DNA from: an uncultured Ruminococcus sp. | Lineage (GTDB): Bacteria; Bacillota; Clostridia; Oscillospirales; CAG-272 | DNA length: 22,832 bases | Reading direction: 5' to 3' | Assembly (NCBI GenBank): GCA_902778985.1 | Contig: CACYZS010000012.1 | Coordinates: forward strand, 1 to 22,832 | Part shown: positions 517 through 20,413 of the stretch, in pieces | Numbering within the stretch: the stretch's first letter is position 1 | Layout of the letters: every line of letters starts with the position of its first letter | Notes under the pieces: generated by a model | What the model saw: the letters and a program-made list of their open reading frames with translations, nothing else | The model's database searches: none | What the model was told of the DNA's origin: nothing | Position numbers and translations under genes: made by a program

Positions 517-548
517 TTTGCATATGTGTGATTTTTGTTGTACCTTTG
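517..548 (+). promoter_or_regulatory. Bacteroidetes-type promoter for tamB
   Basis: TTTG at 517-520 is followed by 20 nt and TACCTTTG at 541-548, a full match to the Bacteroides consensus TTTG-(19-21)-TAnnTTTG. Expected transcription start is about 553-556, leaving a leader of only 12-15 nt before the chosen GTG at 568. This rules out upstream start codons in the same frame (for example TTG 535), which would lie inside the promoter. Confidence 0.75.
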
Positions 549-567
549 CACGCTAAAATGTGCGCTT

Positions 568-3759: not shown

Positions 3760-3769
3760 GGGGGTTGCC

Positions 3770-4639: not shown

Positions 4640-5191
4640 ATGTACTACCGCTTGAAAGTGGCGGGCGTCGAACGCGACCTGCCCATCTGCCCCCTGAACG
4701 ACAAACTCTCGATCGGCGCGTTCGTGATGTTCGGCGACGTCGAACTGACCGAGAAGTGCGCCGCCGCGCTCGTGAAGATCGCACCCGAACACGACGCGAT
4801 CATCACCGCCGAGTCGAAAGGGATCCCGTTGGTCTACGAAATGACGCGTCTGCTCGGGCGCAACCGCTACATCCTCGCCCGCAAGATGCCGAAACTCTAT
4901 ATGCGCGATATCAAGAAGTTCGAGGTGAAATCCATCACCACCGCGGCGCAGCAGACCCTTTACCTCGACGGGTACGACGTCGAGTGGATGAAGGGGAAGA
5001 AGATCCTGATCGTCGACGACGTCATCAGCACCGGCGCGTCTCTTGCCGCGCTCGAACACCTGGTCGTCGAGTCGGGCGGCATCGTCGCCGGACGGATGGC
5101 GGTGCTCGCGGAGGGCGACGCCATCGAGCGCAAGGACATCAAGGTCCTCGGCAAACTCCCGCTTTTCACCCCCGACGGCAAAGAGATCTGA
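4640..5191 (+). CDS. Phosphoribosyltransferase (adenine/xanthine PRT-like)
   Basis: Start ATG 4640 follows AAAGGAG with 9 nt spacing; 183 aa, normal for type I PRTases. ILIVDDVISTGASL (residues 122-135) is the PRPP-binding signature, with paired Asp residues and the TGxS phosphate loop. DAIITAESKGIPLVYEM and YILARKMPKLY fit the substrate loops of apt/xpt-like enzymes common in Clostridia. Expected reaction: purine base plus PRPP gives nucleotide plus pyrophosphate in the cytoplasm. The exact base cannot be read from the sequence. It ends as TGATG, overlapping the Nudix start by one base, so the two are translated together. Confidence 0.85.
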   Translation: MYYRLKVAGVERDLPICPLNDKLSIGAFVMFGDVELTEKCAAALVKIAPEHDAIITAESKGIPLVYEMTRLLGRNRYILARKMPKLYMRDIKKFEVKSITTAAQQTLYLDGYDVEWMKGKKILIVDDVISTGASLAALEHLVVESGGIVAGRMAVLAEGDAIERKDIKVLGKLPLFTPDGKEI

Positions 5192-5670
5192 TGAACGACG
5201 CGATCCTGTCGTCCCTTGTCTACATCGAGCGGGACGGGAAGTACCTGATGCTCCACCGCACGAAGAAGGAGAACGATATCAACGCGGGCAAGTGGATCGG
5301 CGTCGGAGGCAAGTTCGAGCGGGGCGAGAGCCCCGAGGAATGCGCGATCCGCGAGGCGGGGGAGGAGACCGGGCTGACCCTTCATTCCCCCGTTTTCCGC
5401 GGGATCGTCACCTTCCTTTGCGACCGCTGCCCGCCCGAGTATATGCACCTCTTCACCTGCACCGATTTTTCGGGGACGCTCCGCGACTGCGACGAGGGGG
5501 AACTCGCGTGGGTCGAGAAGAGCCGCGTGCCGTGTCTTCCGCTCTGGGAAGGCGACCGGATCTTTTTGTCCTTGCTCGCTCACGACGCGCCCTTCTTCTC
5601 CTTGAAACTGGTCTACCTGGGCGATACCCTGACGCGCGCGACGCTCGACGGGCGGGAACTCCCGCTCTGA
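5191..5670 (+). CDS. Nudix hydrolase (MutT/8-oxo-dGTP diphosphatase-like)
   Basis: Start ATG 5191 overlaps the upstream stop; 159 aa, usual for the family. The Nudix box Gx5Ex7REUxEExGU is complete at residues 40-62: G40, E46, R54-E55, E58-E59 and G61-L62. It binds Mg2+ and cleaves nucleoside diphosphates linked to another group. N-terminal SSLVYIERDGKYLMLHR and GKWIGVGG are typical of MutT/NUDT1-like 8-oxo-dGTP hydrolases of Firmicutes. Pairing with a purine phosphoribosyltransferase fits nucleotide salvage and cleaning. A strong terminator follows 20 nt after the stop. Confidence 0.88.
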   Translation: MNDAILSSLVYIERDGKYLMLHRTKKENDINAGKWIGVGGKFERGESPEECAIREAGEETGLTLHSPVFRGIVTFLCDRCPPEYMHLFTCTDFSGTLRDCDEGELAWVEKSRVPCLPLWEGDRIFLSLLAHDAPFFSLKLVYLGDTLTRATLDGRELPL

Positions 5671-5690
5671 CCGTTTTGCGCCCGGATCCC

Positions 5691-5721
5691 GTTCCCGCCG
5701 TCGCCGGCGGGAACTTTTTTT
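5691..5721 (+). terminator. Rho-independent terminator after the Nudix gene
   Basis: A perfect 10-bp stem, GTTCCCGCCG (5691-5700) with CGGCGGGAAC (5705-5714), has a TCGC loop and is followed by seven T (5715-5721). It isolates the upstream genes from the riboswitch operon. Confidence 0.95.
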
Positions 5722-5774
5722 GCGCGTGATTTCGGTCAAAATCGCACGAAAAATAAAAAACTTGAAAAAAATAC

Positions 5775-5803
5775 TTGACAGATTATAAAAAAGAGGATAC
5801 AAT
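5775..5803 (+). promoter_or_regulatory. Sigma-A promoter of the c-di-GMP-controlled operon
   Basis: A perfect -35 TTGACA (5775-5780), a 17-nt spacer and a -10 TACAAT (5798-5803) form a near-consensus vegetative promoter in an A/T-rich stretch. Transcription should start near 5810. A hairpin, ATTCGG (5806-5811) with CCGAAT (5824-5829), follows just downstream. Confidence 0.9.
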
Positions 5804-5854
5804 ATATTCGGAGTTTTAAGTGACCGAATGGAATATATCTCAACAATATCATAT

Positions 5855-5930
5855 AGTCTATAAAGGCAAAGCCACTGCGAAGTGGTGACGCAAAACTAGA
5901 GGGACTCATTGAGTCAGCCAGTTGCAGAGG
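5855..5930 (+). ncRNA. Cyclic di-GMP class I riboswitch aptamer (GEMM)
   Basis: Conserved pieces appear in order: AAGGCAAA (5863-5870), a CCACT/AGTGG hairpin with a GCGA (GNRA) tetraloop (about 5872-5885), GACGCAAA (5887-5894), CTAGAGGG, a GACTC-ATT-GAGTC hairpin (about 5903-5915), and AGCCAGTTGC (5916-5925). These are the hallmarks of the GEMM/c-di-GMP-I family: GGCAAA and GACGCAAA around the tetraloop helix, and AGCCxGTTGC at the 3' side. The RNA binds the second messenger c-di-GMP and usually controls motility, adhesion or matrix genes. It sits between a strong promoter and a terminator, ahead of four surface-protein genes. Boundaries are approximate. Confidence 0.93.
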
Positions 5931-5953
5931 TGCAACGCGGCTGACTTTTGTTT
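5913..5953 (+). terminator. Riboswitch expression-platform terminator
   Basis: GTCAGCC (5913-5919) pairs with GGCTGAC (5939-5945), and the inner TTGCA (5922-5926) pairs with TGCAA (5931-5935); TTTTGTTT follows. The 5' arm uses the last conserved bases of the aptamer (AGCCAGTTGC). Aptamer folding and termination are therefore mutually exclusive, and ligand binding should allow read-through (an ON switch). Confidence 0.88.
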
Positions 5954-5957
5954 AATT

Positions 5958-5985
5958 TCGGGTAGCCCGAGGAAAGGAGGGAAAA
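5958..5985 (+). promoter_or_regulatory. Ribosome-binding region of the first operon gene, with small hairpin
   Basis: A short hairpin, TCGGG-TAG-CCCGA (5958-5970), stands directly before the ribosome site AAAGGAGG (5973-5980), which is 5 nt from ATG 5986. The site itself stays free in this fold. Confidence 0.6.
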
Positions 5986-6963
5986 ATGATGAAGAAGATC
6001 GACCGATCGACCTTAACGGTCATTCGTTGCGCGATCCCTCTTTGCTTATCCTTCCTGATCGTGGTCGGCGTTATTTTCACCGCCGTATTCCGTCCCTCGC
6101 TCGGGTGGTTCGCGATCTCGCCCGGAGTGACGACGAGCGGTATGGTCGTGGTTACCTCTTCCGACGACTGCGACGTTCTGATCGAGCGGGGAAACGAATT
6201 CGACAAGACCAAGACGAACGGCGTGAACTCCCCGATCGAGCGGTATCCCGGCGTCGGCGCCCTGAAAGAGTACATTGAGGACGACGGCTATGACGCCGAC
6301 ACCGAAACTTCGAGCGCCAACGCGTCGAAACTGGCGTTCGAGATGGTGAACGAACTGGTTCGCTCGGAGTACGACGATTACGCGGAAGCCATGATCGACA
6401 CGCGATTCCTGATGCCCGGCGCGTACGGGACGGTGACTTTCTATTTAAAACCCTTCGCAGGCGTCACCCGGGTGCAGAAAACCATTTCGGTTTCGGTCAA
6501 CGGTCTGTACGCCCTTGAGACGCAGAGCGGATACGTGATCAGCCAGGTCTCCTCGCCAAGTACGCTCGACCTGCTCAAAGGGCACATCCTCTTCTTCACC
6601 GAGCGGACCGGCGCCACCCACGAACAGTTTCGCTACGACGGTCTGGTGGACGGAAGTTTCGTTTTCGATTCCGACGAACACGAACTCTGCAACGAGGTGG
6701 GAAAGACCGACTGCTACAAGATCGTTCTTTACTGGGAGTGGCCCGAGACCTACCTCGATATTTCCCGCAATATGTCCGACAATGAGAACACGAGGAAATA
6801 TCCCGCGGAACTGAACGACTACATTTCAGCCAACCCCGAGTTCTTCTTCGCCATCAACCAGGCAAGTGAAGACGAGACCGATCGAAGCGAAGGGTACGAC
6901 GACGGGGACCAGAAGATCGGTAACCAGGTCCATTACCTTTCCACGATCATTACGATCGGCTGA
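5986..6963 (+). CDS. Exported single-TM protein, SipW-dependent/TasA-like, operon gene 1
   Basis: Start ATG 5986 (a second ATG at 5989 is equally close) follows AAAGGAGG; 325 aa. A basic end (MMKKIDR) leads to one membrane segment at residues 13-35, then GWFAISPGVTTSGMVVV. The pattern of a hydrophobic stretch ending in [LA]-x-WF followed by an xSGMxV strand is shared by many Firmicute surface proteins carrying SipW-type signal peptides, the class that includes the biofilm protein TasA and camelysin. The remainder is acidic, beta-rich and without a known catalytic motif. It is the first gene after the c-di-GMP switch. Role as a pilin-like or matrix subunit is inference; homology to TasA itself is not shown. 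Confidence 0.8.
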   Translation: MMKKIDRSTLTVIRCAIPLCLSFLIVVGVIFTAVFRPSLGWFAISPGVTTSGMVVVTSSDDCDVLIERGNEFDKTKTNGVNSPIERYPGVGALKEYIEDDGYDADTETSSANASKLAFEMVNELVRSEYDDYAEAMIDTRFLMPGAYGTVTFYLKPFAGVTRVQKTISVSVNGLYALETQSGYVISQVSSPSTLDLLKGHILFFTERTGATHEQFRYDGLVDGSFVFDSDEHELCNEVGKTDCYKIVLYWEWPETYLDISRNMSDNENTRKYPAELNDYISANPEFFFAINQASEDETDRSEGYDDGDQKIGNQVHYLSTIITIG

Positions 6964-7004
6964 TCAAAACGATTCCGAAAGAAACGATAGAAAGGAGGCA
7001 AGCC

Positions 7005-7760
7005 GTGAAAGAAGATCAAACCGCAAAAGAAGGCGGATCGGCAACGAAGAAGATCGTACAGATCGCCGTTACCCTGGCGGCGTTGGTTCTGGCGTTGGCT
7101 TTGCCCGTCCTTTCGTGGTTCATTTCGGGAGAACAACTGCTTGCCTACGCCCCCGTCACCTCGCCCGAGGCGCTCTATATCGGGGCGGGACACCGGGACA
7201 TCGTGAAAGGCACCTTTGAGGATATCCGCTACCTGTACTTCAACGGGATCAGCGCGAACGAGGCGTATTCCGACTACGTTTTCTGCGTGTACGGAACGGC
7301 GATCTCGGGGTTCAATCTCCAGTTGGCGTTCACCACCAACAACCAATTCGAGTACGAGATCTACCAGGCGGTCGAGAGTACCGAGCCGTCCCCCGGCGCG
7401 GTGCGCTACGTGACGCACGAGGAAACGCCCGCGGTTTACTACTATTCGATCGATTCAGAAACAAACGGCGGCAATCCCCTGAACGGTGATTTTCTGAACG
7501 ACATCGAGGTTGACGGAAAGGTCCTGGGGGATCCCACGTCCCGCCTTCACGGCGCCGCCTACGGTGAATACACCTACGTCAACCCCTTCGCAGAGGCGCT
7601 CTACTGGCAGAGCGATGTCGAGGATCCCATTCCCGGGGATTCGACCACCGATTTCGTCGTTTACTTCATTCTGCGCGTCAAGACCAACGGAAAAAAGTCG
7701 AACGACCGCGAGACCGATATCCTTTGTATTTCTGCAAAATCCGTCACCATCGTCGAATGA
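7005..7760 (+). CDS. Exported single-TM protein, SipW-type N-terminus, operon gene 2
   Basis: Start GTG 7005 follows AAAGGAGG (6991-6998); 251 aa. Residues 17-39 are a membrane segment ending in LSWF, followed by ISGEQLLAYAPVTSPEALYI. The WF motif at 38-39 lines up with W41-F42 of gene 1, and SPEALYI is a phrase often seen in clostridial surface proteins of this type. The rest is acidic, rich in Tyr, Asn and Asp, and predicted as beta strands. No enzyme motif is seen. It is 41 nt after gene 1 with no terminator between them. Specific function unknown. Confidence 0.78.
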   Translation: MKEDQTAKEGGSATKKIVQIAVTLAALVLALALPVLSWFISGEQLLAYAPVTSPEALYIGAGHRDIVKGTFEDIRYLYFNGISANEAYSDYVFCVYGTAISGFNLQLAFTTNNQFEYEIYQAVESTEPSPGAVRYVTHEETPAVYYYSIDSETNGGNPLNGDFLNDIEVDGKVLGDPTSRLHGAAYGEYTYVNPFAEALYWQSDVEDPIPGDSTTDFVVYFILRVKTNGKKSNDRETDILCISAKSVTIVE

Positions 7761-7805
7761 CGGGCGGACGGTAACGAAAGATAACGAAAGGAAAGGAGAG
7801 CGAAC

Positions 7806-8825
7806 GTGGAACGCAAAAAGACGAGCGTCGCAAGCAAAGAAAAACCGAATACGGCGCCCCGGCGTGACGGGACGAAAAAGACCGGAAGATCCGTGCCCGT
7901 ACGTGCGGCGATCCTGCTTCTGATCTTTTCGCTTCTCGTTTGTTCCGGGATCTTTACCTACGCCAAGTTCACGAACAGTTTGCAGACGCAGCGCACCGTC
8001 GCGGCGTACGATACGCTCGGCGAACGGTTCTCTTCCAACTATCTGCAGGCGGGCGAGGGCGTAAACGTTCGTACCGTGACCGTTGCGACGACGCTTGAAA
8101 TGCCGATGGCGATCGTGACGGTCTGCAACTACGAACAGGGACGGCAGATGTATTTCAACACGATCGACATCCCCTACTCGCTTTCGCTGCGTCTGGTCAA
8201 GTACAATACCGCCACTGGCAAATATGAAGCGGCGACCGCCGACGACTTCGACGAACATGACTACACGGTCACGGTCAGCAAGAACGGGACGACCGTGGAA
8301 CTCGACAGCGATACTCTTTTGGATGAAACGTCTTTCAGCGAAGAGAGTCTGTCCCGCGACGAGGCGTCGTCCGACGCGTACACCGTCGTCTTCAATCGCT
8401 ACCAGAGCGAGATCTACCTTGAGATGGTAGTGACGCCGGCAGAGGGAACCCTCCTTTCCACTCTGCACGGGATCCTGAAACCCGAGATCCGTATGGCGGG
8501 CGCCTCGAGTTCGTGGGCAGGCTCGTTCCAGGATTCGACGGCGAACGCCCCCGCGACCTACGACGGGTTCAACTACCGCGTGAGCGGCGTCGGGAGCGGC
8601 AACTTCACTCTGCGCTGGGATTCCTCGAAGGTCGGGATCAGCGCCGTGTCGCTGATGACGCTGCTCGATATCGAGGGCGCGACGATGGTCGGCAGTTCGA
8701 TCACCTTCCCTGTCGACGACGCGGTAGAGAGCCTATACGACCTTCAGTTCTATAAGATCAATATTACGAGCGAGACCTGGAGCAACATGACGAGCAGCGT
8801 CGTCACGTTCGACTTCAGCGAATGA
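7806..8825 (+). CDS. Exported single-TM protein, TasA/camelysin-like N-terminus, operon gene 3
   Basis: Start GTG 7806 follows AAAGGAGAG; 339 aa. A long basic cytoplasmic end of about 33 residues precedes a membrane segment (34-52) that ends in GIFTYAKFTNS. This resembles the SipW-dependent signature GxxTYAxFTxS. Next come two beta-rich regions, one around the GEGVNVRTVTVATTLEMPMA strand and a C-terminal part (YRVSGVGSGNFTLRWD onward) resembling an immunoglobulin- or filament-like fold. No catalytic residues are apparent. Its stop overlaps an ATG (8822) in the next frame as ATGA. It may be a second matrix or anchoring subunit; this is inference. Confidence 0.78.
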   Translation: MERKKTSVASKEKPNTAPRRDGTKKTGRSVPVRAAILLLIFSLLVCSGIFTYAKFTNSLQTQRTVAAYDTLGERFSSNYLQAGEGVNVRTVTVATTLEMPMAIVTVCNYEQGRQMYFNTIDIPYSLSLRLVKYNTATGKYEAATADDFDEHDYTVTVSKNGTTVELDSDTLLDETSFSEESLSRDEASSDAYTVVFNRYQSEIYLEMVVTPAEGTLLSTLHGILKPEIRMAGASSSWAGSFQDSTANAPATYDGFNYRVSGVGSGNFTLRWDSSKVGISAVSLMTLLDIEGATMVGSSITFPVDDAVESLYDLQFYKINITSETWSNMTSSVVTFDFSE

Positions 8826-8854
8826 AACCGCACGAACGTAAAGAGGAAAAGGGT

Positions 8855-11800
8855 ATGCAAACGAGAAAAGAAAAACGGAAGAGCGTGTTGCGCGTCGTGC
8901 TTCGGGCATGGGGCGTGATCCTCGCGTGCCTGCTCATGGTCCTTTTCGTCCGTAACAATCGCGTCGTCGCGGAACAGGAACCGGTGCAGACCATCGAGAT
9001 CGGCTCCGCAGAAGACTTTTACACCTACAGCAAGGCGTACGCCAGCGGGAACCGCAACCCGAAAGACGTGCTGAACATCTCGATCCAGTCGGGTCTTACC
9101 ATCACCGATCAGACCTTCTTCAGTCTCGGCACCGCGGATCGTCCCTTCGCCGGGACGCTGAATATTCCCGCCAGCGGCATCGACGTTTTCCACCTGTTCG
9201 AATGTCCGCTCTTCGACTACGTGTCGACCGATATGACTATCACCGCCGGCCGTACCGTCAAGATCATGCGCGAGGCGATCTCCGAGACGCCCGAGAGCGG
9301 GATCCTTACCAGCGGCGCGCTCTTTGCCAACCACGTCGTCGCCGGTTCGGGCGCGGCGACCTGGTCGGTCTCGTTGCTCCCCCTGTCCGAGGGGACGGAA
9401 GCCGCCTCGTTCGAGGGGCTGATCGGGGAAATCGAAGACGGCGCCACCGTGAACATCACCTTTACGAATACCGCCGATCTGGCGATCAGCGGTCCGGGTA
9501 ATATCGGCACGATCTGCGGTCAACTCGGCGACGGCGCGACGCTCAACGTCACGACGGCGGGTTCGGGTTCCGCTCTCGCGGTCTCGTCGAGCGGCGGACA
9601 CGCCGGCGGCGTCGTCGGGATCATGGGCGAAGGCGCGATCCTGACGCTGAAATCCACGAACAATACCCGCGTCAACAGCGTGACGACCACCTCGGGGTAC
9701 GCCGGGGGGATCGTCGGCTTCGTTTCCGGGGTGACTACCGGCAACGGGATCCAACTCGGCGCCGGGATCACCGACTATCCCGTGACGGGCAGCGTGACCG
9801 GCACGTCCGGCGCGGGCGCCCTTTTCGGATACTACCTCTCCGACGTGGACAACTGCACCTTTACCCTTCTGAATACCTACTCTATCGCCAGCGGCATGAC
9901 CGTTTCCTCGACGGGCAACACCGGCGGCGTGTTCGGACACCTCGTCAACAACGGCACTTCGTTCACCTTTGACGGCAACGCGTCGGGCGGCGAGACCTTC
10001 AACGTCCGGCTTTCCGGCGGTTCCGCCCGCGGCGGCGTGATGGGGAAATACGATACGAACGCGTTGACCAACGTTCTTTCGTTCGGCAACACGGCGATCA
10101 CGCTGTCCTACACCAACAGTTCCTCTAAAACCGGCGGTCTGATCGGTCTGATCTCGGACAATCCCGCTTACGTTTCGATCGCGGGCGTCAGCGTAACGTC
10201 GGCGGGTACCTCAAACGGAAACGCGCCGGGCGCCGGTCTTGTCGGCAACGCAGGATCTGGCGGCAGTTTCATTGACGTATCCGGCAATATCACGGTCACG
10301 GGACGGTTCTGGGCGGGACTTGTCGAGACGCTCTCGGACGGCGTGCTCCGCATTACCGGAACGACCGATCTTTCTGCGTTCAACCAGCACAGCACCTCCA
10401 ATCTGACGGCGGGCACCATTGTGCGGACGCGCGGCAGATCGCTGATCTATTCGAAAGGCTCCGGCGAGGACGCCAACTGGAAACTGAAACGCAATACGTC
10501 CACTCCGAACCAGATCGACGACGTCATGACGTGGGGCGAAGTTCTTCGCCTTGACGGTTCGACGCTTTCCGAATCCGATCTCTTCACCGTGAATATGACG
10601 GCGCACACCGTCACGCTCAAGAGCGGCGTCACCACGTTGAGCGACGAGATCGATTTTGCGAAAACCGCGCTGAATATTCAACTCAACACCGCCGCTACGA
10701 AGGGGGCCCTGCGTTTCCAGACTTCGCAGCAGTCGTCGACGTTGCTCGGCTCGACCCTGACGCTTTCGGGCGATATCGACCTGAGCGGGACCGGTCTGCT
10801 CGGCTTTATGCGGGACGACGACAAGACGGTAAAAGATCCCCTGACGCAAGCAAACGTGCAAGTGCCGGTTACCGGACCCTTTACCGGCACCCTGGACGGA
10901 AAAGGACACACCCTGACCATGTCGGTCGGCGAAGTGTGGGGGGTGACGTCCTCGGGCGCGGCGCTTCCCGGCGGATCCATCGACGGCTATATCCGGCGTC
11001 ACAAATACTACGGGTTGTTTGCCTACACCGACGGCGCGACCGTCACCGATCTGACGCTCGACGGGACCGTCCGCTTCCTGCAGGACGTCGACGGGATCTG
11101 CGTCGGCGGGATCTCCGCATACGCGAAAGGCGGACTGACGCTGACCGACGTGACCGTGACCGGATTGACCTATGAATATCTGCTCGGGACGAATTATACG
11201 ACCTATCTCGGCGGAGCCGTTGGATACGTTACCGGAGACAACGTCGATCTGTCGGTATCGGGCGGTACCTACCGTCCGATCGTGAATGACCTGACTGCAG
11301 CGGGCAAGGGTACCGGCAAACGGACCTACGTCGGCGGCGTGATCGGCTACGTCGATAACGGTTTGGATCAGGAGATCGCGTTCAATTCGACAACGATCGG
11401 TCTTACCTATACCAAGACCGTCAACACGACCCGTGAATCCTGCTTCGGCTCTGCGATCGCGGGAATGTCCGATCAGGAATACGCGAAAGACAACCGCACG
11501 GTCGACCTTACCGGCGTGACCGTGAAGATGAGCGCGACCGGCATCGCAAACTCTAACGTCTTCGGCGGCATTCTCGGTACCGAGTGGCTCGCAGCCGACG
11601 TGACGATCAACGGCGTGGAGATCAATTCGGCGTCGATCACCGAGCAGAACAGTGCGTCGGCGGACTTCGGCGGGCTCGTCTACCGTGCGACGGGGCACTG
11701 GGACGTCCAGAATCTTACCGTAACGTCCGCGAACTTCTCCCTGCACGCCTCGGGATCGACCTTCGGCTTCATTGCCAACAAGTCCTCGACCACCCTCTCG

Positions 11801-14800
11801 GCGCTCTACCTCGAAGTCGACAATACCGCGTCCCACTACAATATCGGCGCCGTGACCATCACCGGCGGCACGTTTTCCGTTTTTGACGAGATCGTGGCGG
11901 ACACCCGTTTCAACGCGCGGAATATTATCCGGAACGGAAACTCGGTCGTCTCGATCAAGACGACCGACAACGAGATCGACACGTCCGGTTCTTACAACAC
12001 CTATCTGAATAAGACCGCGTACGGGCAGACGGCGAACGGCGCGGTCAACCCCAACGCGCGCTATTACTACAACGTCGGCTACGCCGTTTCCAATCTCGCG
12101 ACGGCAAAATACAATCTCTACGCCTGGAGCGTCAAACAGTACGCCCACCCGACGCTTGCGGCGTGGTTCGGCAATCCCTCGTCCGCCTTCGCGGGGACGA
12201 TCGATCTGACGGGCATTTCCTATTACCCCGTCGATCTTTCGAGCAACGTGACCTTCTCTGCGGCGACCGTCAAACTCGACAATATCACGATGGAAGCGAA
12301 CGTCAAGTACGCCTATACGGGTGAATCGGGGACGCGCGTGACGCGTTCGGCGAGCCAGCACTACCTGATGCACGCCGCCCTGTTTTTGAACGCGACCGGG
12401 AATATCACCGCGACGGGCAGTCCCGCGGGACTGACGCTGCAGGGCAACGTGCCGAAGATCTCGAACGATATCTGCGGCTTCCTCGTTGCGGGTACGCTCG
12501 GCGGGACCGACAACCTGCTCCCGACCGAACTGGATCTGACCGATCTGGTCCTGAACGGCGTCTATATCTCGAACGGCGGCGCGCATTTCACCGATACGAC
12601 CTACGCTCCGCTTCTGGTCAATCAGATCGCGAGAAACTCGACCGTGACGCTCGACGGCGTGACGCAGACCGGGTACTCGACGGATCTTGCCGGATCCAGT
12701 CTGATCGGCGACGTCGGAAACACGACGGCGCACGGTATCCACCTGACCTTTACCCGAATCGTGCTCGACGGACGGAACAACGTCTCGACCGACCTTCTCG
12801 CGGCGTCCACCACGTCGCTGAACGGCGTCTACGGGACGTCGAAATCGGTCTTCAGCCGCGCCACCCTGCTCAACAGTTTCCGGTATGCGGGCGAGAGCGC
12901 CGGCACCTATATCTTCACGATCGACGAGGACTGGAACACGTCCGCGCACACGCCGATCCACCACGTCACCTACGGCTACGAGATCACGACCTCGGTCGAA
13001 AACGCAGGAAGGCAGAATAAGTACAGCGGCTCGACCACGATCTTCACCGATCCGAACCAAGACGACGAGGCATCCGATCCGTACAACTTCACGACCTACT
13101 TCCTGCCTTACGTCTACGTGACCGCGGATCTGGGTGAATACAAGCACGAACTGGCGGTCAACATCACGTACAGCAGCGAGATCACCGGCTTCGGGAAATA
13201 CGACCAACCCTACCTGATCGACAGCGGCGAGAAACTGAAGATCATCGCCATGATCATCAAGGGCGACGACGTGACGAGCGAAGTGAAGATCAACCTGCCG
13301 GGCGATATGACCTCCTATAACTATACCGCGACGGGTTACGGGGAATACCAGTATTCCTTCGGTCTGACCAACTATTCGTCTTCCGACGTCGGGCAGACCA
13401 CGTCGAATAACCCCGAATACGCCTTCCACGGCGTGATCCTCGGGTACGGCGGGATCTGGAAGATCACCAACCAGTCGAGACAGCCGCTGGTCTACTCCTC
13501 GAGTGGCAGCGTGTTCAAGAAACTGGTCGTTCACGTGGCGACCGACGTCGGCAATTCGCACGCGCACGACATCACGCTTTCTTCCGAGAGCACCGAATAT
13601 CTGTATACCAGCGGACAGGTCTCCTACGGCGCGCTGGTGCGGCAGATCCTCGGCGGCGACAACATCGTCGACAACGTGAAGGTGACTTTTGAAAACAACG
13701 TGACCTTCGCGTTCTCTGCCAGCGGATCGAACAAAGACCGGCTGATCGCGGTCGGCGGCTACGTCGGCACGCTGGTCAACGGGGGACTGATCTTCCGCAA
13801 CATCTCGGACGAATACGTCGGACTGACGGCGGCGACCACCGCCTGCGTCAGCGACGCCGGCTATCTCTACGTCAACCCGATCATCGGACGCGTGCTTGCC
13901 GGCTACGCGTTCCGCGAGACCGACACGTACGCCGTATCGTCCGCGTTCTCGAACGGAACCAAAAACTACGCGATGTCGGATCTGAACCCGGCTCTTGCAA
14001 AACTGTCGATCACGAATTCAAACAGCCAGTATACCATCACGATCCCGAACGGGCAGGCGTTCTACGTGCTCGGCGCGATCGTCAACTGCGGCGCTGCCTC
14101 GGCGTCTTACAACTCTTCGACGGAGCAGGCGTACGCCACGCTTTCCGATTTCTGGCAGGCGTACCGCGCCTGGACGGCGACGCGCGCCGGCGCGACCTAC
14201 GACGGGGTCGGATCGACCTCGGGCGCCGACTATACGGCGGCGCAAGCCGACGCATACGATTCGGCGGGGACCTTGAAAGGGATCCCGTACGTCATTCGTA
14301 CCTATACCGTAAAGAACGGGAACGTCTACTACGCCCGCGCTCTGACCAGGCGGAACAACAACGTCATCTCGGTCACAGCCAACTGCAACGTCGCGGCGGG
14401 ATTCCGCGGGATCGGCAGCATCTATACCGAGGCGAACAAATACTCTGACGACCGGGTACACCTCGGGATCGAGTCCATGTCCGGAACGGGGAACCCGACC
14501 ATCACCCTGCATATGACCTATTCCGAATACGACGCGTCGGTCACGGCTTACCGGGTCAGGAACGGGAATTCGTTCGCCGCCTACGAGAAAGAAGTCAAGT
14601 TCGGCTCCAACAGCGGGTTCGGGCTCTTCAACCGTCTGTATATGACCGGATCGAGCGGCTGGATCGAAGGGTTCACCCTTTCGGGAAGCGTCTATTACGG
14701 GTTGCGGCAGGTATCGGACGGCGCCGCTTCGAATTGCAGTTTCGCAAACGTCAAAGATTATTCGGTTTTGAGCACCGGCGCGCTTGCAGGAATGGCCTAT

Positions 14801-17800
14801 TCCAACAGCGATTCCAACTTCTATACCTCTTTGCGGATCCGGAACGTGGCGCTCTCGACGCTTTCGGTCGAGGGGGCGAAATACGCCGGCGGGCTCGTCG
14901 GTTGTTTCGTGAATCCGTTGAACAGCAACGACGAGAGATACACCAATTACGTTACGACCTGCCCCGTTTCGGGAATTACGGTTCGGGCGGGCGTTGCTGC
15001 GGGCAGTTACTTCGGCTGCGCCAACGTCGGCGGCAACAACAACAACAACAACGCCGCGCGACTGTTCATCACGGGCGATCCGGAAACCAAGACGACGGTC
15101 GCTCCGACGGCGATCACGGTGTTCGGCGCGATCGACGAGATCTGGGAGCGCGTCAGCCCCGCTGCCGGCGGTCTGATCGGCTGCGCAGACACGGCGTACA
15201 CGGCGGGCGGAGCGTATTCTTATTTTCTCCAGATCCGGTATATCAAGGTCGTCGGCGGCACGATAACCGCGCCCCGGACGACTGCGGCGGCTTATACCAA
15301 CGCTATGTACCAGAGAGGTATGCCCGCTGCGTCGGCTATCGTTGCGAAGGTCCGCGGCGCTAAGTTGTCGGTGACCGACTGTGAGATCCTGCACGTCGAC
15401 CTTAACGCGGACGCGGTCGGAGGCGCACTGGGATATATCGTGATCCCGAGAGTCTCGGAACTTGATTTCGAGCGAATCGTGGTCGACGGAGACAATGGCG
15501 ATTCGACGACGGCGACCATGTCCTCGCGTCTGCACGCGGGGGGGATTCTCGGGCGTATGTACTGCAAAAAACTCTCGACGCACACCTTCGCCGATCTGAT
15601 TGTCAGAAATTATTCGTTCTCCTCCGATTTCACCGGAAGCGAAGGAACGGCGGCGGGTATTATCGGTAATACCTATATTGAGTCGGAAAACGCCTCCGAC
15701 TATCCCAAGCAGTTCATCTTCCGCAATATCGAGGTGACCGACTGCACGATGACCGTGGATACCACGTCGTCGGGTTCGGGCAACCGCAAGGGCGTCGGCG
15801 CTTTCTTCGGCGCGCTGTCGGGCCATAGCAATCAGACCACCTACACCGGGTACAACCTTCGCGCCGTCGTTACCTTCGCGGGAAGCGGGACCAACAACGC
15901 GGGCGCCATCGTCGGTAACAACGTGAACAATTCTGCGATCATCAAACTCGTCGGCGTCAGCGCCAACGTCACGCGTGGCACCAAGACGCTCGGCTATACC
16001 GAGAACAACAACGGCGGGTACGCGGTCTACTCCGACTTCTCGATGGGGCAGACCAACACGGCGTTCTCCGGCATCAACGACACCGGGACCAACGCCGACG
16101 ATTATACCGACGTGACCGCCGCGAGTCCGTATACGACCACCAACCCCGCCTACGTCCTCGGCTCTTCGACGATGGTCGGAGAGGGATTTGCCGACTCGGT
16201 GGCAAACCTGACGATCCAGTCGATCTTGGCAGACGGCGTTGCCGGGCGTTACGCCTACGCCGCGTCGGGATACTATACGGGCAATTCGGGCGACACCAAC
16301 TACGCGGCGTTCAATTCCGCGAAGACGACCGCGCTCACCATGTTCTCGTCGGAAACGATCGGATACGCGGGCACCGATTTCCCGATCATCCTGATCGAGA
16401 CCACCGATGAGAACGCCTCGCACAAGATCATCAACAGTTACATCCGCCTGCTCACCAACACCCGCTTCGATTACGGGACGACGGCGGCAGATAAGTACGA
16501 GGTCGTCATCTACAACATGGCGTACGAGAACGGGGGATTCACCTTCACGGCGGGCGACGCCAGTCTTCGCCTGAGAAGCAACAAGTTCCGGATGATCAAT
16601 ACGGCGTACGACAGCGGTAAACTTCAGTGCTCGCTGATCGACGTGCGGTTCCTCGATCCTACGGGCAGCGGGAAGGTGGCGTATCACCTCTACGTGCCGG
16701 TCTTCGTCAAGAAGGTTCTGACCTTCGATTTCGACGTCGCGGCGCTCGGCGGTACGACCTATCACGAGAGTCAGTATACCTCGCGTTTCGGTTACCGTCT
16801 GATCTCCAACGTCGGGACGCCGATCACGCTCTACTTCCGGTACACGTATTCGCGTACCGCAGCCGAGTGGGAGAACGCGATCAACGCGGGCGAGAACCCG
16901 CACCGTCACTACGGCAAGAAACTGGTTTTGCAGAGGGCGAACAACAACGCGATCCTCGCGGACTTTGATGAGGACACGATCCTCGTCCTGGTCGACAAGA
17001 ACGACGGCGGGAAACCCTACTACGCACGGCTCGGCGACGCGCTCTCGGGCACGGCGCTCGATCTGACCGCGTTCCGGACCGGTATGACGCGCGACGGTGA
17101 AAACCTGGTCTTCTCGGGCGATTATTTCGCTCCGAAGGACTTCGCCGATATGCTGACCATGACCGTCACCGATACGGGAGACGGCAGAACGATGGTCGAA
17201 TGCGACGCGCTCTCGGCGACCGTAACGGTCGACGGGCAGGGCTACCGTCCCGCGACCGACGAGGAATTGGAAGACAACGAGATCGACAAATTCAGGATCA
17301 ACGTCGGCGCGATCGTGGGCGATACGCTCAAAGAATCGTATTACCTCTCGGTCTTCACCGAAGGCGGCGCCGATTACGAACTGTTCCATTACTTTATCGT
17401 CACGTCTCCGTCGGCACTGTTCGACGGCGTGACCTACCCCGCGCGGATCCTGGACACCAACGCGCACACCATGGTCCACCTGGTCATGGGAAAGATCTTC
17501 GACCATACCAACCTGGCGGTCTCCTCGCGTTCTACGACGGGGCAAACCATGATGAAGAGCGGCTCCAACAACGCGATCATCACCACGCTTTCGGTCCGGA
17601 TCGGCATTTCGAGCGCTCTCGGCGAACAACTGCGCAACGAGGTGAAGGGTTACGTCAGCGCGACCGGTTTCTATCAGAGTTTCCTGATTTATCTGACCCG
17701 TCACGAGGGCAACACGCAGACCAAGGCGATCATCGGTAACCCGACGGCGACCGGCTCGTATGAGACCGACTATACGCTGAACTATTCCGCCGACAACGCG

Positions 17801-18673
17801 TCCACGGCGTACACCAACGACCATATCCACGTGACGCAGAGTTTCGCGGAGTTCGTGACCGGAAACCTCGGCAGCGCTTTCGCCGGGGAGAATTACACGG
17901 TCGAGGTCAACGCGTCGGTCACCCTGACCTATGAACTCGACGGCGCGGTCACGGCTCAGTTTCCGGGACGGAACGGCGAGAGCAAGAACGGCGTCACCGT
18001 GTCGGCTGCCTCGAACATCGCGTTCTCCGATACGGCGACGTCCTACAGTAAGAACTCGATCAGTGGCAACGATTCGAATGAGTATTCGTACTATTCCGAG
18101 GCTGCCATCGAAAACGCGACGCTCTTCTGCGAACCTTTCGGGGACAACAGAGGCGACTTCACGCCGTTCGGGATCAACGCCCTGAACGACCCGCCCGAGA
18201 CGCTCGAGATCCTGCCCACCCTGAACTTCACTCCGGTCATCAACCAGGTGAGAGGGCAGTACGCCGACGCCGTCGTGACGGTCACGTTGCGCCAGAAACA
18301 GGCGAGCGGCTCGTACAGTAACACCGACCTTGCGAATATCTCCCAGTACATCACTTCGCTCTCGGTCGGGGGAGACGCCGCGACCACAACCGATCATCCG
18401 TCGTACTATTCGGCGGTGGTTGACGCCGAAGACCTGATCGAAGGCGACGTCACAATCGAATTCCCGCGCATCTCCTTCTCGGTGAAGACGGGCGCCCCGT
18501 TTGAAGACGCCGGACTCTCGAGCAACGTCTACTCCAACTACCGTCTGACCGTTGCGATCGTTTTGCGCGACGGATCCGGCAACGAGATCGCGGTGTCCAA
18601 GTGTTCCGACTACGTGATCTACACCAACGCGAAGGTCATACCGAGTTTCATACCCCCCAGCGCCCAGCCGTGA
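8855..18673 (+). CDS. Giant beta-helix surface protein (about 3,272 aa), operon gene 4
   Basis: I choose ATG 8855 because GAGGAAAAGGG lies just upstream; ATG 8822, overlapping gene 3, has no ribosome site and would add 11 residues. Residues 1-39 look like a Sec signal (basic start, hydrophobic 18-32, cleavage possibly after VVA). The body has many GLUG-like GG turns typical of right-handed beta-helices: HAGGVVG, YAGGIVG, TGGVFG, TGGLIG, VGGVIGY, AGGLVG, AGGILG. Helix-entry phrases recur: IEIGSAEDFYTYSKAYASG (about 47), GPFTGTLDGKGHTLTM (about 673) and GFGKYDQPYLIDSGEKLKII (about 1445). From about 2600 onward the style changes to beta-sandwich-like sequence. There is no LPXTG motif, C-terminal TM, S-layer homology domain or dockerin, so attachment may rely on its operon partners. 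Likely adhesin or matrix scaffold; no ligand or enzyme site is visible. Confidence 0.85.
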   Translation: MQTRKEKRKSVLRVVLRAWGVILACLLMVLFVRNNRVVAEQEPVQTIEIGSAEDFYTYSKAYASGNRNPKDVLNISIQSGLTITDQTFFSLGTADRPFAGTLNIPASGIDVFHLFECPLFDYVSTDMTITAGRTVKIMREAISETPESGILTSGALFANHVVAGSGAATWSVSLLPLSEGTEAASFEGLIGEIEDGATVNITFTNTADLAISGPGNIGTICGQLGDGATLNVTTAGSGSALAVSSSGGHAGGVVGIMGEGAILTLKSTNNTRVNSVTTTSGYAGGIVGFVSGVTTGNGIQLGAGITDYPVTGSVTGTSGAGALFGYYLSDVDNCTFTLLNTYSIASGMTVSSTGNTGGVFGHLVNNGTSFTFDGNASGGETFNVRLSGGSARGGVMGKYDTNALTNVLSFGNTAITLSYTNSSSKTGGLIGLISDNPAYVSIAGVSVTSAGTSNGNAPGAGLVGNAGSGGSFIDVSGNITVTGRFWAGLVETLSDGVLRITGTTDLSAFNQHSTSNLTAGTIVRTRGRSLIYSKGSGEDANWKLKRNTSTPNQIDDVMTWGEVLRLDGSTLSESDLFTVNMTAHTVTLKSGVTTLSDEIDFAKTALNIQLNTAATKGALRFQTSQQSSTLLGSTLTLSGDIDLSGTGLLGFMRDDDKTVKDPLTQANVQVPVTGPFTGTLDGKGHTLTMSVGEVWGVTSSGAALPGGSIDGYIRRHKYYGLFAYTDGATVTDLTLDGTVRFLQDVDGICVGGISAYAKGGLTLTDVTVTGLTYEYLLGTNYTTYLGGAVGYVTGDNVDLSVSGGTYRPIVNDLTAAGKGTGKRTYVGGVIGYVDNGLDQEIAFNSTTIGLTYTKTVNTTRESCFGSAIAGMSDQEYAKDNRTVDLTGVTVKMSATGIANSNVFGGILGTEWLAADVTINGVEINSASITEQNSASADFGGLVYRATGHWDVQNLTVTSANFSLHASGSTFGFIANKSSTTLSALYLEVDNTASHYNIGAVTITGGTFSVFDEIVADTRFNARNIIRNGNSVVSIKTTDNEIDTSGSYNTYLNKTAYGQTANGAVNPNARYYYNVGYAVSNLATAKYNLYAWSVKQYAHPTLAAWFGNPSSAFAGTIDLTGISYYPVDLSSNVTFSAATVKLDNITMEANVKYAYTGESGTRVTRSASQHYLMHAALFLNATGNITATGSPAGLTLQGNVPKISNDICGFLVAGTLGGTDNLLPTELDLTDLVLNGVYISNGGAHFTDTTYAPLLVNQIARNSTVTLDGVTQTGYSTDLAGSSLIGDVGNTTAHGIHLTFTRIVLDGRNNVSTDLLAASTTSLNGVYGTSKSVFSRATLLNSFRYAGESAGTYIFTIDEDWNTSAHTPIHHVTYGYEITTSVENAGRQNKYSGSTTIFTDPNQDDEASDPYNFTTYFLPYVYVTADLGEYKHELAVNITYSSEITGFGKYDQPYLIDSGEKLKIIAMIIKGDDVTSEVKINLPGDMTSYNYTATGYGEYQYSFGLTNYSSSDVGQTTSNNPEYAFHGVILGYGGIWKITNQSRQPLVYSSSGSVFKKLVVHVATDVGNSHAHDITLSSESTEYLYTSGQVSYGALVRQILGGDNIVDNVKVTFENNVTFAFSASGSNKDRLIAVGGYVGTLVNGGLIFRNISDEYVGLTAATTACVSDAGYLYVNPIIGRVLAGYAFRETDTYAVSSAFSNGTKNYAMSDLNPALAKLSITNSNSQYTITIPNGQAFYVLGAIVNCGAASASYNSSTEQAYATLSDFWQAYRAWTATRAGATYDGVGSTSGADYTAAQADAYDSAGTLKGIPYVIRTYTVKNGNVYYARALTRRNNNVISVTANCNVAAGFRGIGSIYTEANKYSDDRVHLGIESMSGTGNPTITLHMTYSEYDASVTAYRVRNGNSFAAYEKEVKFGSNSGFGLFNRLYMTGSSGWIEGFTLSGSVYYGLRQVSDGAASNCSFANVKDYSVLSTGALAGMAYSNSDSNFYTSLRIRNVALSTLSVEGAKYAGGLVGCFVNPLNSNDERYTNYVTTCPVSGITVRAGVAAGSYFGCANVGGNNNNNNAARLFITGDPETKTTVAPTAITVFGAIDEIWERVSPAAGGLIGCADTAYTAGGAYSYFLQIRYIKVVGGTITAPRTTAAAYTNAMYQRGMPAASAIVAKVRGAKLSVTDCEILHVDLNADAVGGALGYIVIPRVSELDFERIVVDGDNGDSTTATMSSRLHAGGILGRMYCKKLSTHTFADLIVRNYSFSSDFTGSEGTAAGIIGNTYIESENASDYPKQFIFRNIEVTDCTMTVDTTSSGSGNRKGVGAFFGALSGHSNQTTYTGYNLRAVVTFAGSGTNNAGAIVGNNVNNSAIIKLVGVSANVTRGTKTLGYTENNNGGYAVYSDFSMGQTNTAFSGINDTGTNADDYTDVTAASPYTTTNPAYVLGSSTMVGEGFADSVANLTIQSILADGVAGRYAYAASGYYTGNSGDTNYAAFNSAKTTALTMFSSETIGYAGTDFPIILIETTDENASHKIINSYIRLLTNTRFDYGTTAADKYEVVIYNMAYENGGFTFTAGDASLRLRSNKFRMINTAYDSGKLQCSLIDVRFLDPTGSGKVAYHLYVPVFVKKVLTFDFDVAALGGTTYHESQYTSRFGYRLISNVGTPITLYFRYTYSRTAAEWENAINAGENPHRHYGKKLVLQRANNNAILADFDEDTILVLVDKNDGGKPYYARLGDALSGTALDLTAFRTGMTRDGENLVFSGDYFAPKDFADMLTMTVTDTGDGRTMVECDALSATVTVDGQGYRPATDEELEDNEIDKFRINVGAIVGDTLKESYYLSVFTEGGADYELFHYFIVTSPSALFDGVTYPARILDTNAHTMVHLVMGKIFDHTNLAVSSRSTTGQTMMKSGSNNAIITTLSVRIGISSALGEQLRNEVKGYVSATGFYQSFLIYLTRHEGNTQTKAIIGNPTATGSYETDYTLNYSADNASTAYTNDHIHVTQSFAEFVTGNLGSAFAGENYTVEVNASVTLTYELDGAVTAQFPGRNGESKNGVTVSAASNIAFSDTATSYSKNSISGNDSNEYSYYSEAAIENATLFCEPFGDNRGDFTPFGINALNDPPETLEILPTLNFTPVINQVRGQYADAVVTVTLRQKQASGSYSNTDLANISQYITSLSVGGDAATTTDHPSYYSAVVDAEDLIEGDVTIEFPRISFSVKTGAPFEDAGLSSNVYSNYRLTVAIVLRDGSGNEIAVSKCSDYVIYTNAKVIPSFIPPSAQP
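15035..15052 (+). repeat. AAC trinucleotide repeat (6 copies) in the giant gene
   Basis: Six AAC codons in a row encode a six-Asn run (residues about 2061-2066) between VGG and AARLF. The length is a multiple of three, so slippage by whole units would keep the frame. It probably marks a loop in the beta-helix. Confidence 0.9.
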
Positions 18674-18868
18674 TCTTCGCATACTCCGTTTTCCGCGGGC
18701 GGGAAACCGCCTTAAAATACCGGAAAAACCGCAGCGACCCCAAAACCGCAACCCCCGCACGGCGACCGCCCGGAGACATCCGGGCGGTCGTTGTATATAA
18801 AAAGGAAAAGCCCCGGAGCGATCCGGGGCTTTTTTTGCGTGCGGGACGTTTGACCCGCCGATAGGGAA
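18674..18868. other. Convergent intergenic region with hairpins
   Basis: Three hairpins lie between the giant gene and the minus-strand operon. The first is a small one (GGCGG-GAAA-CCGCC, 18698-18711, followed by TTAAAA). The second is an 11-bp stem, CGACCGCCCGG (18763-18773) with CCGGGCGGTCG (18780-18790), with no T-tract behind it. The third is the bidirectional terminator listed separately. I see no gene here. Confidence 0.7.
18806..18836. terminator. Bidirectional rho-independent terminator
   Basis: A 12-bp stem, AAAAGCCCCGGA (18806-18817) with TCCGGGGCTTTT (18822-18833), has a GCGA loop. T-runs follow in both directions: TTTTTTT on the plus strand (18830-18836) and TTTTCCTTTTT on the minus strand. 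It ends both the giant-protein operon and the pduL operon. Confidence 0.93.
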
Positions 18869-19691
18869 TTACTTGTTCTTCTGGGACTCTTCGACCGCGA
18901 CGGCGACCGCAACGGTGGCGCCGACCATCGGGTTGTTGCCCATACCGATCAGACCCATCATTTCGACGTGCGCCGGGACGGAAGAAGAACCCGCGAACTG
19001 CGCATCGCTGTGCATTCTGCCCATCGTGATCGAAACGCCGACGTGCTCGAGTTTCATGATCGCGACGCCTTCCGGCACGTTGTCCGCACCGTAGCAGCGG
19101 ACGTTGGCGCGGGGACCGTTCGAGTAGGCGGTCTTCGAGACGACCTTCACCTCTTCGGTGTAGGGATCGAACTCGGTCTTGCAGTAGGTGAAGCCGTTGA
19201 TGCGGGAGATGATGAACGCGGCGTCCTTGCCGAGGCCGTTCAGAATGACCTGCAGGGGGTTCTTGCGCACCTTGTTGGCGTTGAGCGCGATCTTGATCGC
19301 GCCCTCGGCGGCGGCAAAGGACTCGTGCCCCGCGAGGAAGCAGAAGCAACTGGTCTCCTCGGAGAGGAGCATCGCGCCGAGGTTGCCGTGTCCGAGACCG
19401 ACCTTGCGGTTCTCGGCGACGGAGCCCGGGATGCAGAACGCCTGCAGACCGATGCCGATCGCGGCGGCGGCGTCAGACGCCTTCTTGCAGCCCGTTTTCA
19501 GAGCGATCGCGGCGCCGACGGTGTACGCCCAGACGGCGTTCTCAAAGCTGCGTTTCGCGCACGATCTTGTCGCAGTCGATGCCGGCGGCGAGGGTGATGT
19601 CGCGGCACTCCTCGATCGAGTTGATGCCGTATTCTTTCAGAGCCGCGTTGATCTTGTCGACTCTTCTTTCGTATCCTTCAAACAATGCCAT
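18869..19691 (-). pseudogene. GGGtGRT family protein gene, frameshifted and with internal deletion
   Basis: Translation from ATG 19691 (ribosome site AAGGAGG, overlapping the upstream stop) gives MALFEGYERRVDKINAALKE and on to KIVRETQL, then TGA at 19542-19544. The matching continuation, FENAVWAYTVGAAIALKTGC, runs in another frame from 19546 to the stop at 18869. About 8 nt (a PIA-like tripeptide) seem to be lost at about 19545-19550. A second defect is in frame: VSIT joins directly to MGRMHSDAQFAGSSSVPAHV at about 19024, where family members, as I recall them, carry about 57 more residues containing the GGGTGRT motif. Adding both losses back restores the usual length of about 333 aa. The molecular role of the family is unknown; it regularly sits beside the Fe-S scaffold gene found here. 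It is either decayed or mis-assembled. Confidence 0.85.
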
Positions 19692-19705
19692 TTCGCTCGT
19701 CCTCC

Positions 19706-20413
19706 TTATTTCTTCCGGGGATCGATGTAGGTGACCGCCTCGGCAAATCTGCCGTAGGTGCCGATCGCCTTGTTGTACGCGGTGGTCGGATCGTCGCCGC
19801 GCTTGATGAAGTCGGTCATTTTGCCGAGCGAAACGAACTCGTAACCGATCACCTGGTTGTCGGCGTCAAGCGCCATGCGGGTAACGTAACCTTCCGCCAT
19901 TTCGAGGTAGCGAACGCCCTTCGCCTTGGTGCCGTACATGGTACCGACCTGCGAACGGGTGCCCTTGCCCAGGTCCTCAAGCCCCGCGCCGATGACGAGA
20001 CCGCCCTCGGAGAACGCGGACTGGGTGCGGCCGTAGACGATCTGCAGGAAGAGTTCGCGCATCGCGGTATTGATCGCGTCGCAGACGAGGTCGGTGTTCA
20101 GCGCCTCGAGAATGGTCTTACCGGGAAGGATCTCGGCAGCCATCGCGGCGGAGTGGGTCATACCGGAGCAGCCGATGGTCTCGACCAGCGCCTCTTCGAT
20201 CACGCCCTTTTTGACGTTCAGGGTCAGTTTGCAGGCGCCCTGCTGGGGAGCGCACCAACCGATACCGTGGGTCAGACCCGAGATATCGGACACCTCTCTT
20301 GCCTGTACCCATTTGCCCTCTTCGGGAAGCGGGGCGGGACCGTGGTTCGGACCCTGGGCAACGGTGCACATCGCGGCGACGTCGGTCGACATCGCGTATT
20401 CACATTTGCTCAT
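19706..20413 (-). CDS. NifU/IscU-like iron-sulfur cluster assembly scaffold protein
   Basis: Start ATG 20413 follows AAAAGGAG; 235 aa. The sequence CTVAQGPNHGPAPLPEEGKW, GIGWCAPQQGACKLTLNV, EALVETIGCSGMTHSAAMA and EILPGKTILEALNTDLVCDA belongs to the Firmicute family annotated as Fe-S assembly scaffold. The LVETIGCSGMTHSAA and NTDLVCDAI cysteines correspond to the NifU_N/IscU pattern GC..a..SAS...L and C.l. IscU proteins build and hand over Fe-S clusters in the cytoplasm, but this longer type has not, to my knowledge, been tested. It lies between pduL and the GGGtGRT gene, its usual partner, with 14 nt to the latter. No damage is seen here. Confidence 0.85.
   Translation of the reverse strand: MSKCEYAMSTDVAAMCTVAQGPNHGPAPLPEEGKWVQAREVSDISGLTHGIGWCAPQQGACKLTLNVKKGVIEEALVETIGCSGMTHSAAMAAEILPGKTILEALNTDLVCDAINTAMRELFLQIVYGRTQSAFSEGGLVIGAGLEDLGKGTRSQVGTMYGTKAKGVRYLEMAEGYVTRMALDADNQVIGYEFVSLGKMTDFIKRGDDPTTAYNKAIGTYGRFAEAVTYIDPRKK

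Follow-up and report, generated by a model that had tools for sequence, protein, structure and literature searches.

In an uncultured Ruminococcus sp., probably of gut or rumen origin, a leader carrying a class I cyclic diguanosine monophosphate (c-di-GMP) aptamer precedes four consecutive genes for predicted exported proteins, denoted here S1, S2, S3 and BIG, and we consider it probable that the leader acts as an ON switch through which c-di-GMP drives export of the four proteins as a matrix or adhesin structure. The stretch of DNA analysed, hereafter the window, comprises the 22,832 nucleotides (nt) at positions 1 to 22,832 of contig CACYZS010000012.1 (C12) from assembly GCA_902778985.1 (genome G000), which extends over 1.65 Mb in 250 contigs and is 86% complete. 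The RNA mechanism is well supported, while the function of the proteins is one that we infer.

A sigma-A promoter would initiate a leader containing the c-di-GMP-I aptamer and, without ligand, the 3' strand of the aptamer would pair with downstream bases to generate a strong terminator, stopping transcription before S1. Binding of c-di-GMP to the nascent aptamer would keep this strand in the P3 arm and block the terminator, with the result that read-through would transcribe S1-S2-S3-BIG as a single unit. S1 to S3 would be exported via SipW-type signals by the SipW-like peptidases of the genome, and BIG via an ordinary Sec signal, and, when c-di-GMP is high and the cells are sessile, the four proteins would together form a matrix or adhesin structure outside the cell.

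The Riboswitch Leader

A preliminary description of the window, made from the sequence alone, had proposed a near-perfect sigma-A promoter, and the site at positions 5775–5803 of the + strand (TTGACA-17-TACAAT) does carry 11 of the 12 consensus bases. The c-di-GMP-I (GEMM-I) aptamer begins 51 nt past this promoter and occupies positions 5855–5929 of the same strand, where it scores 56.1 bits with the Rfam model RF01051 against a gathering threshold of 35; it is the sole RF01051 site found in the G000 genome. The subfamily model RF03167 (c-di-GMP-I-GGC) gives 52.1 bits, under its own cut-off of 59, and was the match retained over RF01051 when only short stretches were scanned. The aptamer had been called a textbook example and, although the score bears out its class, that wording is slightly too strong given the short P3, in which 12 model positions are deleted. 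A full-length P3 arm, which is lacking here, carries the usual tetraloop receptor of c-di-GMP-I aptamers. P3 is likewise shortened in the five other complete operon aptamers for which alignments were examined.

The aptamer is followed by an intrinsic terminator (positions 5911–5953, + strand) that consists of a hairpin at 5911–5947 and a U tract at 5946–5953. The hairpin covers the last 19 nt of the aptamer match and takes up the 3' strand of P3, such that its 5' arm is the 3' strand of the aptamer. The sharing of these bases, suggested earlier, was thus confirmed, and folding of the leader yielded an overlapping terminator of −23.5 kcal/mol. When only the aptamer has been transcribed, folding energies place the aptamer fold 1.7 kcal/mol above the minimum free energy and, once the terminator is transcribed too, 12–16 kcal/mol above it, a shift that fits what a co-transcriptional decision needs. 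On shuffling the 14 nt past the aptamer while leaving the U tract intact (1000 trials), hairpins of −20 kcal/mol or lower arose in 5 trials, of −15 kcal/mol or lower in 51 and of −10 kcal/mol or lower in 295.

Stronger evidence than the shuffling comes from related operons in other genomes, which are described in the next section. In each of the ten riboswitch-bearing operon copies, the window included, a hairpin (−16.0 to −23.5 kcal/mol) overlaps the aptamer, its 5' arm beginning 9–19 nt within the aptamer match; for G454, where the best-scoring hairpin extends beyond the U tract, the hairpin ending at the U tract was taken (−17.9 kcal/mol). Nine of these aptamers are complete and score 42.4–59.1 bits, and the tenth, from G215, is truncated and scores 38.5 bits; for the latter, a permissive scan keeps a match to RF03168 (c-di-GMP-I-UAU) that lies under the RF03168 cut-off. 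A promoter of the pattern TTGA(C/T)N-17-TANNNT occurs within 120 nt upstream in 8 of the 10 riboswitch leaders, the exceptions being G215, where the end of the contig truncates the leader, and G020, which carries no match to the pattern. In G001 the −10 box ends just 4 nt before the aptamer match.

Because aptamer and terminator need the same strand, a bound aptamer would exclude the terminator, and ligand binding should therefore permit read-through. The mutual exclusion of the two structures, and with it a putative ON switch by structure, is well supported by the sequences and agrees with the preliminary description, in which the ligand had been expected to prevent termination.

The identity of the ligand bears on model position 11 of the aptamer which, by our own assignment, is taken as the position guiding cyclic-dinucleotide selectivity in the pilM riboswitch. 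It is a G in the window aptamer and in seven of the nine complete operon aptamers, the window included, and an A in G001 and G682. According to PMC9262584, this position guides the preference of pilM among cyclic dinucleotides, and an A also occurs there in 10 of the 58 other riboswitches of the family, the G001 operon leader among them. Another cyclic dinucleotide, such as 3',3'-cyclic GMP-AMP (cGAMP), might thus be sensed at some operon copies, but this is very improbable given the prevalence of G and the report, in the same paper, that changing this G in the Cd1 RNA had no large effect.

Some further observations concern the riboswitches of the family at large. The ten A-type members may have cGAMP or mixed specificity. 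With a simple labelling scheme, the 58 other family riboswitches divide into 34 with overlapping terminators, 11 with separate terminators, 7 with weak ones and 6 with none. One of the overlapping cases precedes an flgB-like gene, and the overlap label alone is consequently no proof of ON logic. Two or three RF01051 aptamers occur in a row before one gene at G103:C16, G127:C76, G145:C152, G063:C56 and G047:C17.

Operon Structure and Distribution

Downstream of the terminator, and on the same strand, lie open reading frames (ORFs) for S1 (5986–6963; 325 amino acids), S2 (7005–7760; 251 amino acids), S3 (7806–8825; 339 amino acids) and the giant BIG protein (8822–18673). For BIG, a true start at 8855 rather than 8822 is suggested because the N-terminus from that point is conserved in the G238 and G215 relatives. 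The four genes had been described as lacking a further terminator and this was upheld: on the + strand within the operon there is no terminator-like site of more than 8 pairs, and the sole 8-pair site falls inside the S2 coding sequence. The operon ends at a terminator-like stem at 18806–18833 followed by a T run to 18836, which may function on either strand; the motif scan placed this stem on the − strand, and the + strand T run was identified by eye. Two promoter-like sites occur on the + strand inside the operon, at 12087 and 13218, each with 9 of 12 consensus bases. Over positions 5000–20000, both strands together carry 24 terminator-like and 8 promoter-like sites versus 14.3 and 4.7, respectively, in shuffled sequences.

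Relatives of the operon were gathered by protein searches and not via the riboswitch. The first 593 residues of BIG gave matches in 4 of 50 genomes of the same genus, three of them strong, S1 in 8 of 395 genomes of the family, and an S2 profile in 12 of the 394 genomes searched across the order, ten of them strong. With the window counted once, the union comprises 18 loci in 17 genomes, nine of family f1 and eight of other families, and G066 (family f1) carries two operon copies. Left out were G227 (BIG search, E = 1.7e-4; locus L102, without any operon gene match), G035, G715 and a second G469 match (S2 profile, E = 3.7e-4 to 9.8e-4), and L075 (RUG12450), where the contig starts inside BIG. 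The order S1-S2-S3-BIG is seen at 17 of the 18 loci, with S1 homologues at each of the 17 loci other than the window; at the remaining locus, in G682, the contig stops after S1-S2. Several of the BIG genes extend past contig ends. Searches of S1 against phage records and of S2 against plasmid records gave no match.

An RF01051 aptamer lies directly upstream of the operon, about 50–220 nt before the first gene, at 10 of the 18 loci (9 of 17 excluding the window), in G000, G238, G215 (cut by the contig end), G020, G001, G468, G454, G682, G469 and G430; in G001 an extra SipW-type gene intervenes between the riboswitch and S1. At three sites per 2-Mb genome, the chance that one falls in the correct orientation in the 250 nt upstream is about 2e-4 per locus. 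The other eight copies, in G123, G419, G066 (both), G319, G768, G684 and G771, are without a riboswitch. The preliminary description had suggested looking for this gene order behind RF01051 in other genomes, and this search succeeded at 10 of the 18 loci; the description thus proved correct in almost all details, and other genomes bore out its main prediction. A site on the same contig as the first G066 copy was excluded from the upstream count, being about 4 kb upstream with intervening ORFs. RF01051 sites occur somewhere in 14 of the 17 operon genomes (none in G768, G684 and G771), with a total of 40 sites across the 17.

Within one order, operon copies preceded by the riboswitch come from five families, and other copies lack it. 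On a tree of S1 and S2, its presence requires 7 changes, 5 of them forced by well-supported branches; as the presence is scattered over the tree, the association has been gained or lost repeatedly. Riboswitch control of the operon is therefore common but labile, and not a fixed part of it.

The Exported Proteins

All four window proteins carry an N-terminal hydrophobic stretch. In S1, S2 and S3 the hydrophobic segment is followed by SLGWF, SWF and YAKFTNS, respectively, and W-F (Y-A-x-F in S3) directly after the stretch is what we take to be the hallmark of SipW-type substrates. Across ten aligned copies the invariant features include W41 and Y-W-x-W-P in S1, W38 and Q-L-x-x-T-T-N in S2, and F-S-S-N in S3. 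The description of S1 to S3 as SipW-type exported proteins is thus consistent with the motif and with the SipW-like peptidases of the genome (see below), while no family match accompanies it; SipW dependence of their export would be plausible on these grounds.

BIG, of about 3,280 amino acids, is conserved along its length (31–48% identity to four other long copies) and rich in glycine-hydrophobic repeats: it contains 18 [GA][GA]-hydrophobic-hydrophobic-G motifs versus a mean of 1.3 in shuffled sequences, and seven of these are spaced 33–37 residues apart at 262–471. The repeats suggest a beta-solenoid. The earlier label of a beta-helix protein relies on the repeats, since the single-sequence structure models are too poor for use (mean predicted local distance difference test score 41.3 for S2 without its N-terminus and 43.6 for a BIG segment). 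The GLUG family and other repeat families of Pfam gave no match in the window BIG or in five copies.

The preliminary description viewed the four proteins as a distinct surface system, and accordingly no credible match to Pfam or NCBIfam families was found for the window proteins, for ten aligned copies of S1 to S3 or for five of BIG. Weak family matches were confined to single members, except for heterocyst_PatX, which three of the ten S3 members matched, at best with E = 0.012, and which in the window S3 falls on the N-terminal hydrophobic part. Sequence profile searches of the PDB yielded nothing up to E = 10 for S1, S2 and BIG; the only matches for S3 were four weak, unrelated ones (best E = 0.024). 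In neither Pfam nor NCBIfam was there a credible match to TasA, camelysin or the SipW-cognate family, and identity as TasA homologues was rejected for want of a family match. The extreme C-terminus of BIG shows only IPPSA with no hydrophobic segment after it, and hence no sortase signal with a membrane tail; a sortase-anchored adhesin was rejected on this ground. The operon itself contains no SipW gene, its four ORFs giving no peptidase match.

It is possible, if rather doubtful, that the four proteins constitute a secreted assembly of another kind, such as a contact-dependent structure or an enzyme complex on the surface. This would accord with the lack of any detectable homologue of known function. 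Of the 23 Foldseek matches to the poor BIG model at E ≤ 10, none reached E ≤ 0.001, the best having E = 0.27; many were to beta-helix proteins, some of them polysaccharide-processing, and these non-significant matches, which would point the same way, were not used as evidence. A matrix or adhesin structure is favoured over such an assembly by the combination of three small exported proteins with a giant repeat protein under presumptive c-di-GMP control, and by SipW-type peptidases exporting matrix fibres in the known cases covered by PMC7395162.

Signal Peptidases, GGDEF Proteins and a CoCoPALM-Like Cluster

Genome G000 has three matches to TIGR02228, the SipW family, two of which are above cut-off, and eight matches to GGDEF proteins. 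SipW-family peptidases above cut-off, and GGDEF proteins, were each present in nine of nine operon genomes tested.

Two of the SipW-like peptidases are encoded in a cluster at a locus separate from the operon (L113; G000:C135, 1680–10120), together with a Walker-A nucleoside triphosphatase (NTPase), a DUF2357-type protein and a GGDEF-bearing protein. The NTPase is split across two overlapping frames, 2687–3283 and about 3250–4200, which may reflect a sequencing error or be real. Of the CoCoPALM features looked for in its NTPase, an NxD GTPase motif and a fused FtsB-like domain, an N-N-D-D sequence and an N-terminal hydrophobic stretch were observed. For the copy of the cluster in G123, Pfam identifies DUF2357, Peptidase_S26 (in one of the two peptidases) and EAL plus GGDEF; its NTPase has no Pfam match and is called McrB type from its context and the look of its sequence. 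This NTPase does match the PADLOC candidate-defence model PDC-M26A.

By domain content, the cluster resembles the systems named CoCoPALM. In PMC11090510, these are McrBC relatives, with an McrB-like GTPase and an McrC-like DUF2357 protein, associated with signal peptidases that the authors think act in pilus assembly, and their treatment is deferred to a later paper. Among the matches listed for literature under the CoCoPALM name, the only relevant ones were the PMC11090510 work and its preprint.

In G319 the cluster directly follows BIG on the same strand, and in G771 cluster-type genes directly precede S1. In the order-wide set of 394 genomes, which as far as listed is the one searched with S2, a DUF2357 profile matched 54, of which 27 at E < 1e-50; strong matches occurred in all ten genomes with a strong S2 match. 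The hypergeometric probability of the co-occurrence is 1e-9 to 4e-13; kinship is ignored in it, and the profile, having been derived from five genomes with the operon, is biased towards such genomes. Of the 54 genomes, 44 have no strong S2 match, many of them being weak DUF2357 matches, and the cluster is therefore not specific to the operon. As a tentative proposal, S1-S2-S3-BIG could be the cargo of a CoCoPALM machine, in which a membrane-attached McrBC-derived NTPase, a DUF2357 partner and two SipW-type peptidases would respond to c-di-GMP by exporting or assembling a fibre and the giant repeat protein. If true, surface assembly would be driven by a motor derived from a defence-type AAA+ module.

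Genome G020 carries, at L056 (G020:C12) and L052 (G020:C121), two further RF01051 sites directly before SipW-type signal peptidases, as well as sites that precede small SipW-type proteins with other giant ORFs (2394 and 1859 amino acids) after them; these loci are probably related systems.

Comparison with Known Systems

The riboswitch class, the ON logic (in Bc2 and pilM) and SipW-type matrix operons are already known. Among the last, tapA-sipW-tasA, in this gene order, belongs to Bacillus subtilis and sipW-bsaABCRSD to Clostridium perfringens, and such operons are regulated by SinR or by the BsaRS two-component system; the window has a c-di-GMP riboswitch in their place. Like the window operon, they encode several small exported proteins, with SipW-type peptidases in the same genome, and in the known cases (PMC7395162) they yield biofilm fibres. 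The window operon differs in having no SipW gene inside it and no match to TasA, camelysin or any other family, and in adding the giant protein.

Closest in its switch logic is the Bc2 RNA of Bacillus thuringiensis which, according to PMC4933901, has a class I aptamer whose ligand blocks termination and controls a surface protein, the collagen adhesion protein Cap; Bc2 governs this single adhesin, whereas the window switch precedes a four-gene operon. The pilM riboswitch of Geobacter metallireducens shares the exclusion logic, with the 3' strand of the aptamer in the terminator, and its kinetic control has been modelled (PMC9262584). Its ligand is cGAMP, whereas the window aptamer has the c-di-GMP-type G, and the genes controlled are different.

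In Clostridioides difficile, c-di-GMP likewise turns on surface proteins, comprising sortase-dependent proteins and type IV pili (PMC6366702). Those systems employ class II riboswitches and sortase signals or pilins, unlike the window operon, where BIG lacks a sortase signal. A CoCoPALM-like cluster is present in operon-bearing genomes, and in that of the window it stands apart from the operon.

Weighing the ON-Switch Interpretation

Several points weigh against an ON switch controlling a matrix or adhesin system. At equilibrium the terminator is favoured by the 12–16 kcal/mol given above; the switch must therefore act kinetically, and the ligand must therefore bind before the 3' arm of the terminator emerges. 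The short P3 may reduce ligand affinity. In the eight operon copies without a riboswitch, no RF01051 site was found near S1 up to E = 5, and riboswitch presence on the S1 and S2 tree is unclustered, with 456 of 500 shuffles giving a value as low. In G468 (L135; G468:C20, between 1163 and 1387), a second promoter-like sequence, TTGACT-17-TATAAT, was identified by eye downstream of the riboswitch terminator and ahead of S1; transcription from it could circumvent the switch. No family match backs a matrix function. SipW-family and GGDEF proteins are both widespread: among 14 control genomes the SipW family was matched in 8, above cut-off in 4, and GGDEF in 8.

Some of these points, notably the short P3 and the copies without a riboswitch, would suit an OFF switch, in which c-di-GMP promotes termination, or a relic that no longer binds ligand, with the operon controlled elsewhere. 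So would the precedent of C. difficile, where, according to PMC6366702, each of the seven functional class I switches is of the OFF type. Such a leader is nevertheless improbable: in all ten copies the terminator uses the aptamer's own 3' strand and could not coexist with a bound aptamer, and every aptamer scores above the cut-off of 35. The sharing of the strand led us to reject the OFF-switch interpretation, and an ON switch remains the preferred one.

Other Features of the Window

Genes upstream of the operon are common to the window and G238, with 95% and 75% identity. At 535–3759, a single ORF combines an AsmA/DUF748-type N-terminal part with a DUF1538 C-terminal part. The first 2.7 kb have a G+C content of 0.35–0.59, as against about 0.65 beyond; the contig is probably chimeric, with a junction perhaps near 2200–2570.

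Implications

Among the open-access papers listed in the literature searches, judged by title and opening of the abstract, none was recognised as describing this operon. As far as the searches reach, what is new comprises a conserved unit of four protein families, a c-di-GMP ON control over them that is frequent yet labile, and their co-occurrence with a CoCoPALM-like cluster. The operon looks like a genuine cell-surface system, one that has perhaps gone undescribed so far. A conserved four-gene surface system would thereby join the c-di-GMP outputs of clostridia, together with a clear and testable ON riboswitch. The operon also supplies a candidate cargo for CoCoPALM clusters, so that the question of their function becomes directly testable, and the patchy presence of a riboswitch before one operon makes it a good case for studying riboswitch gain and loss.

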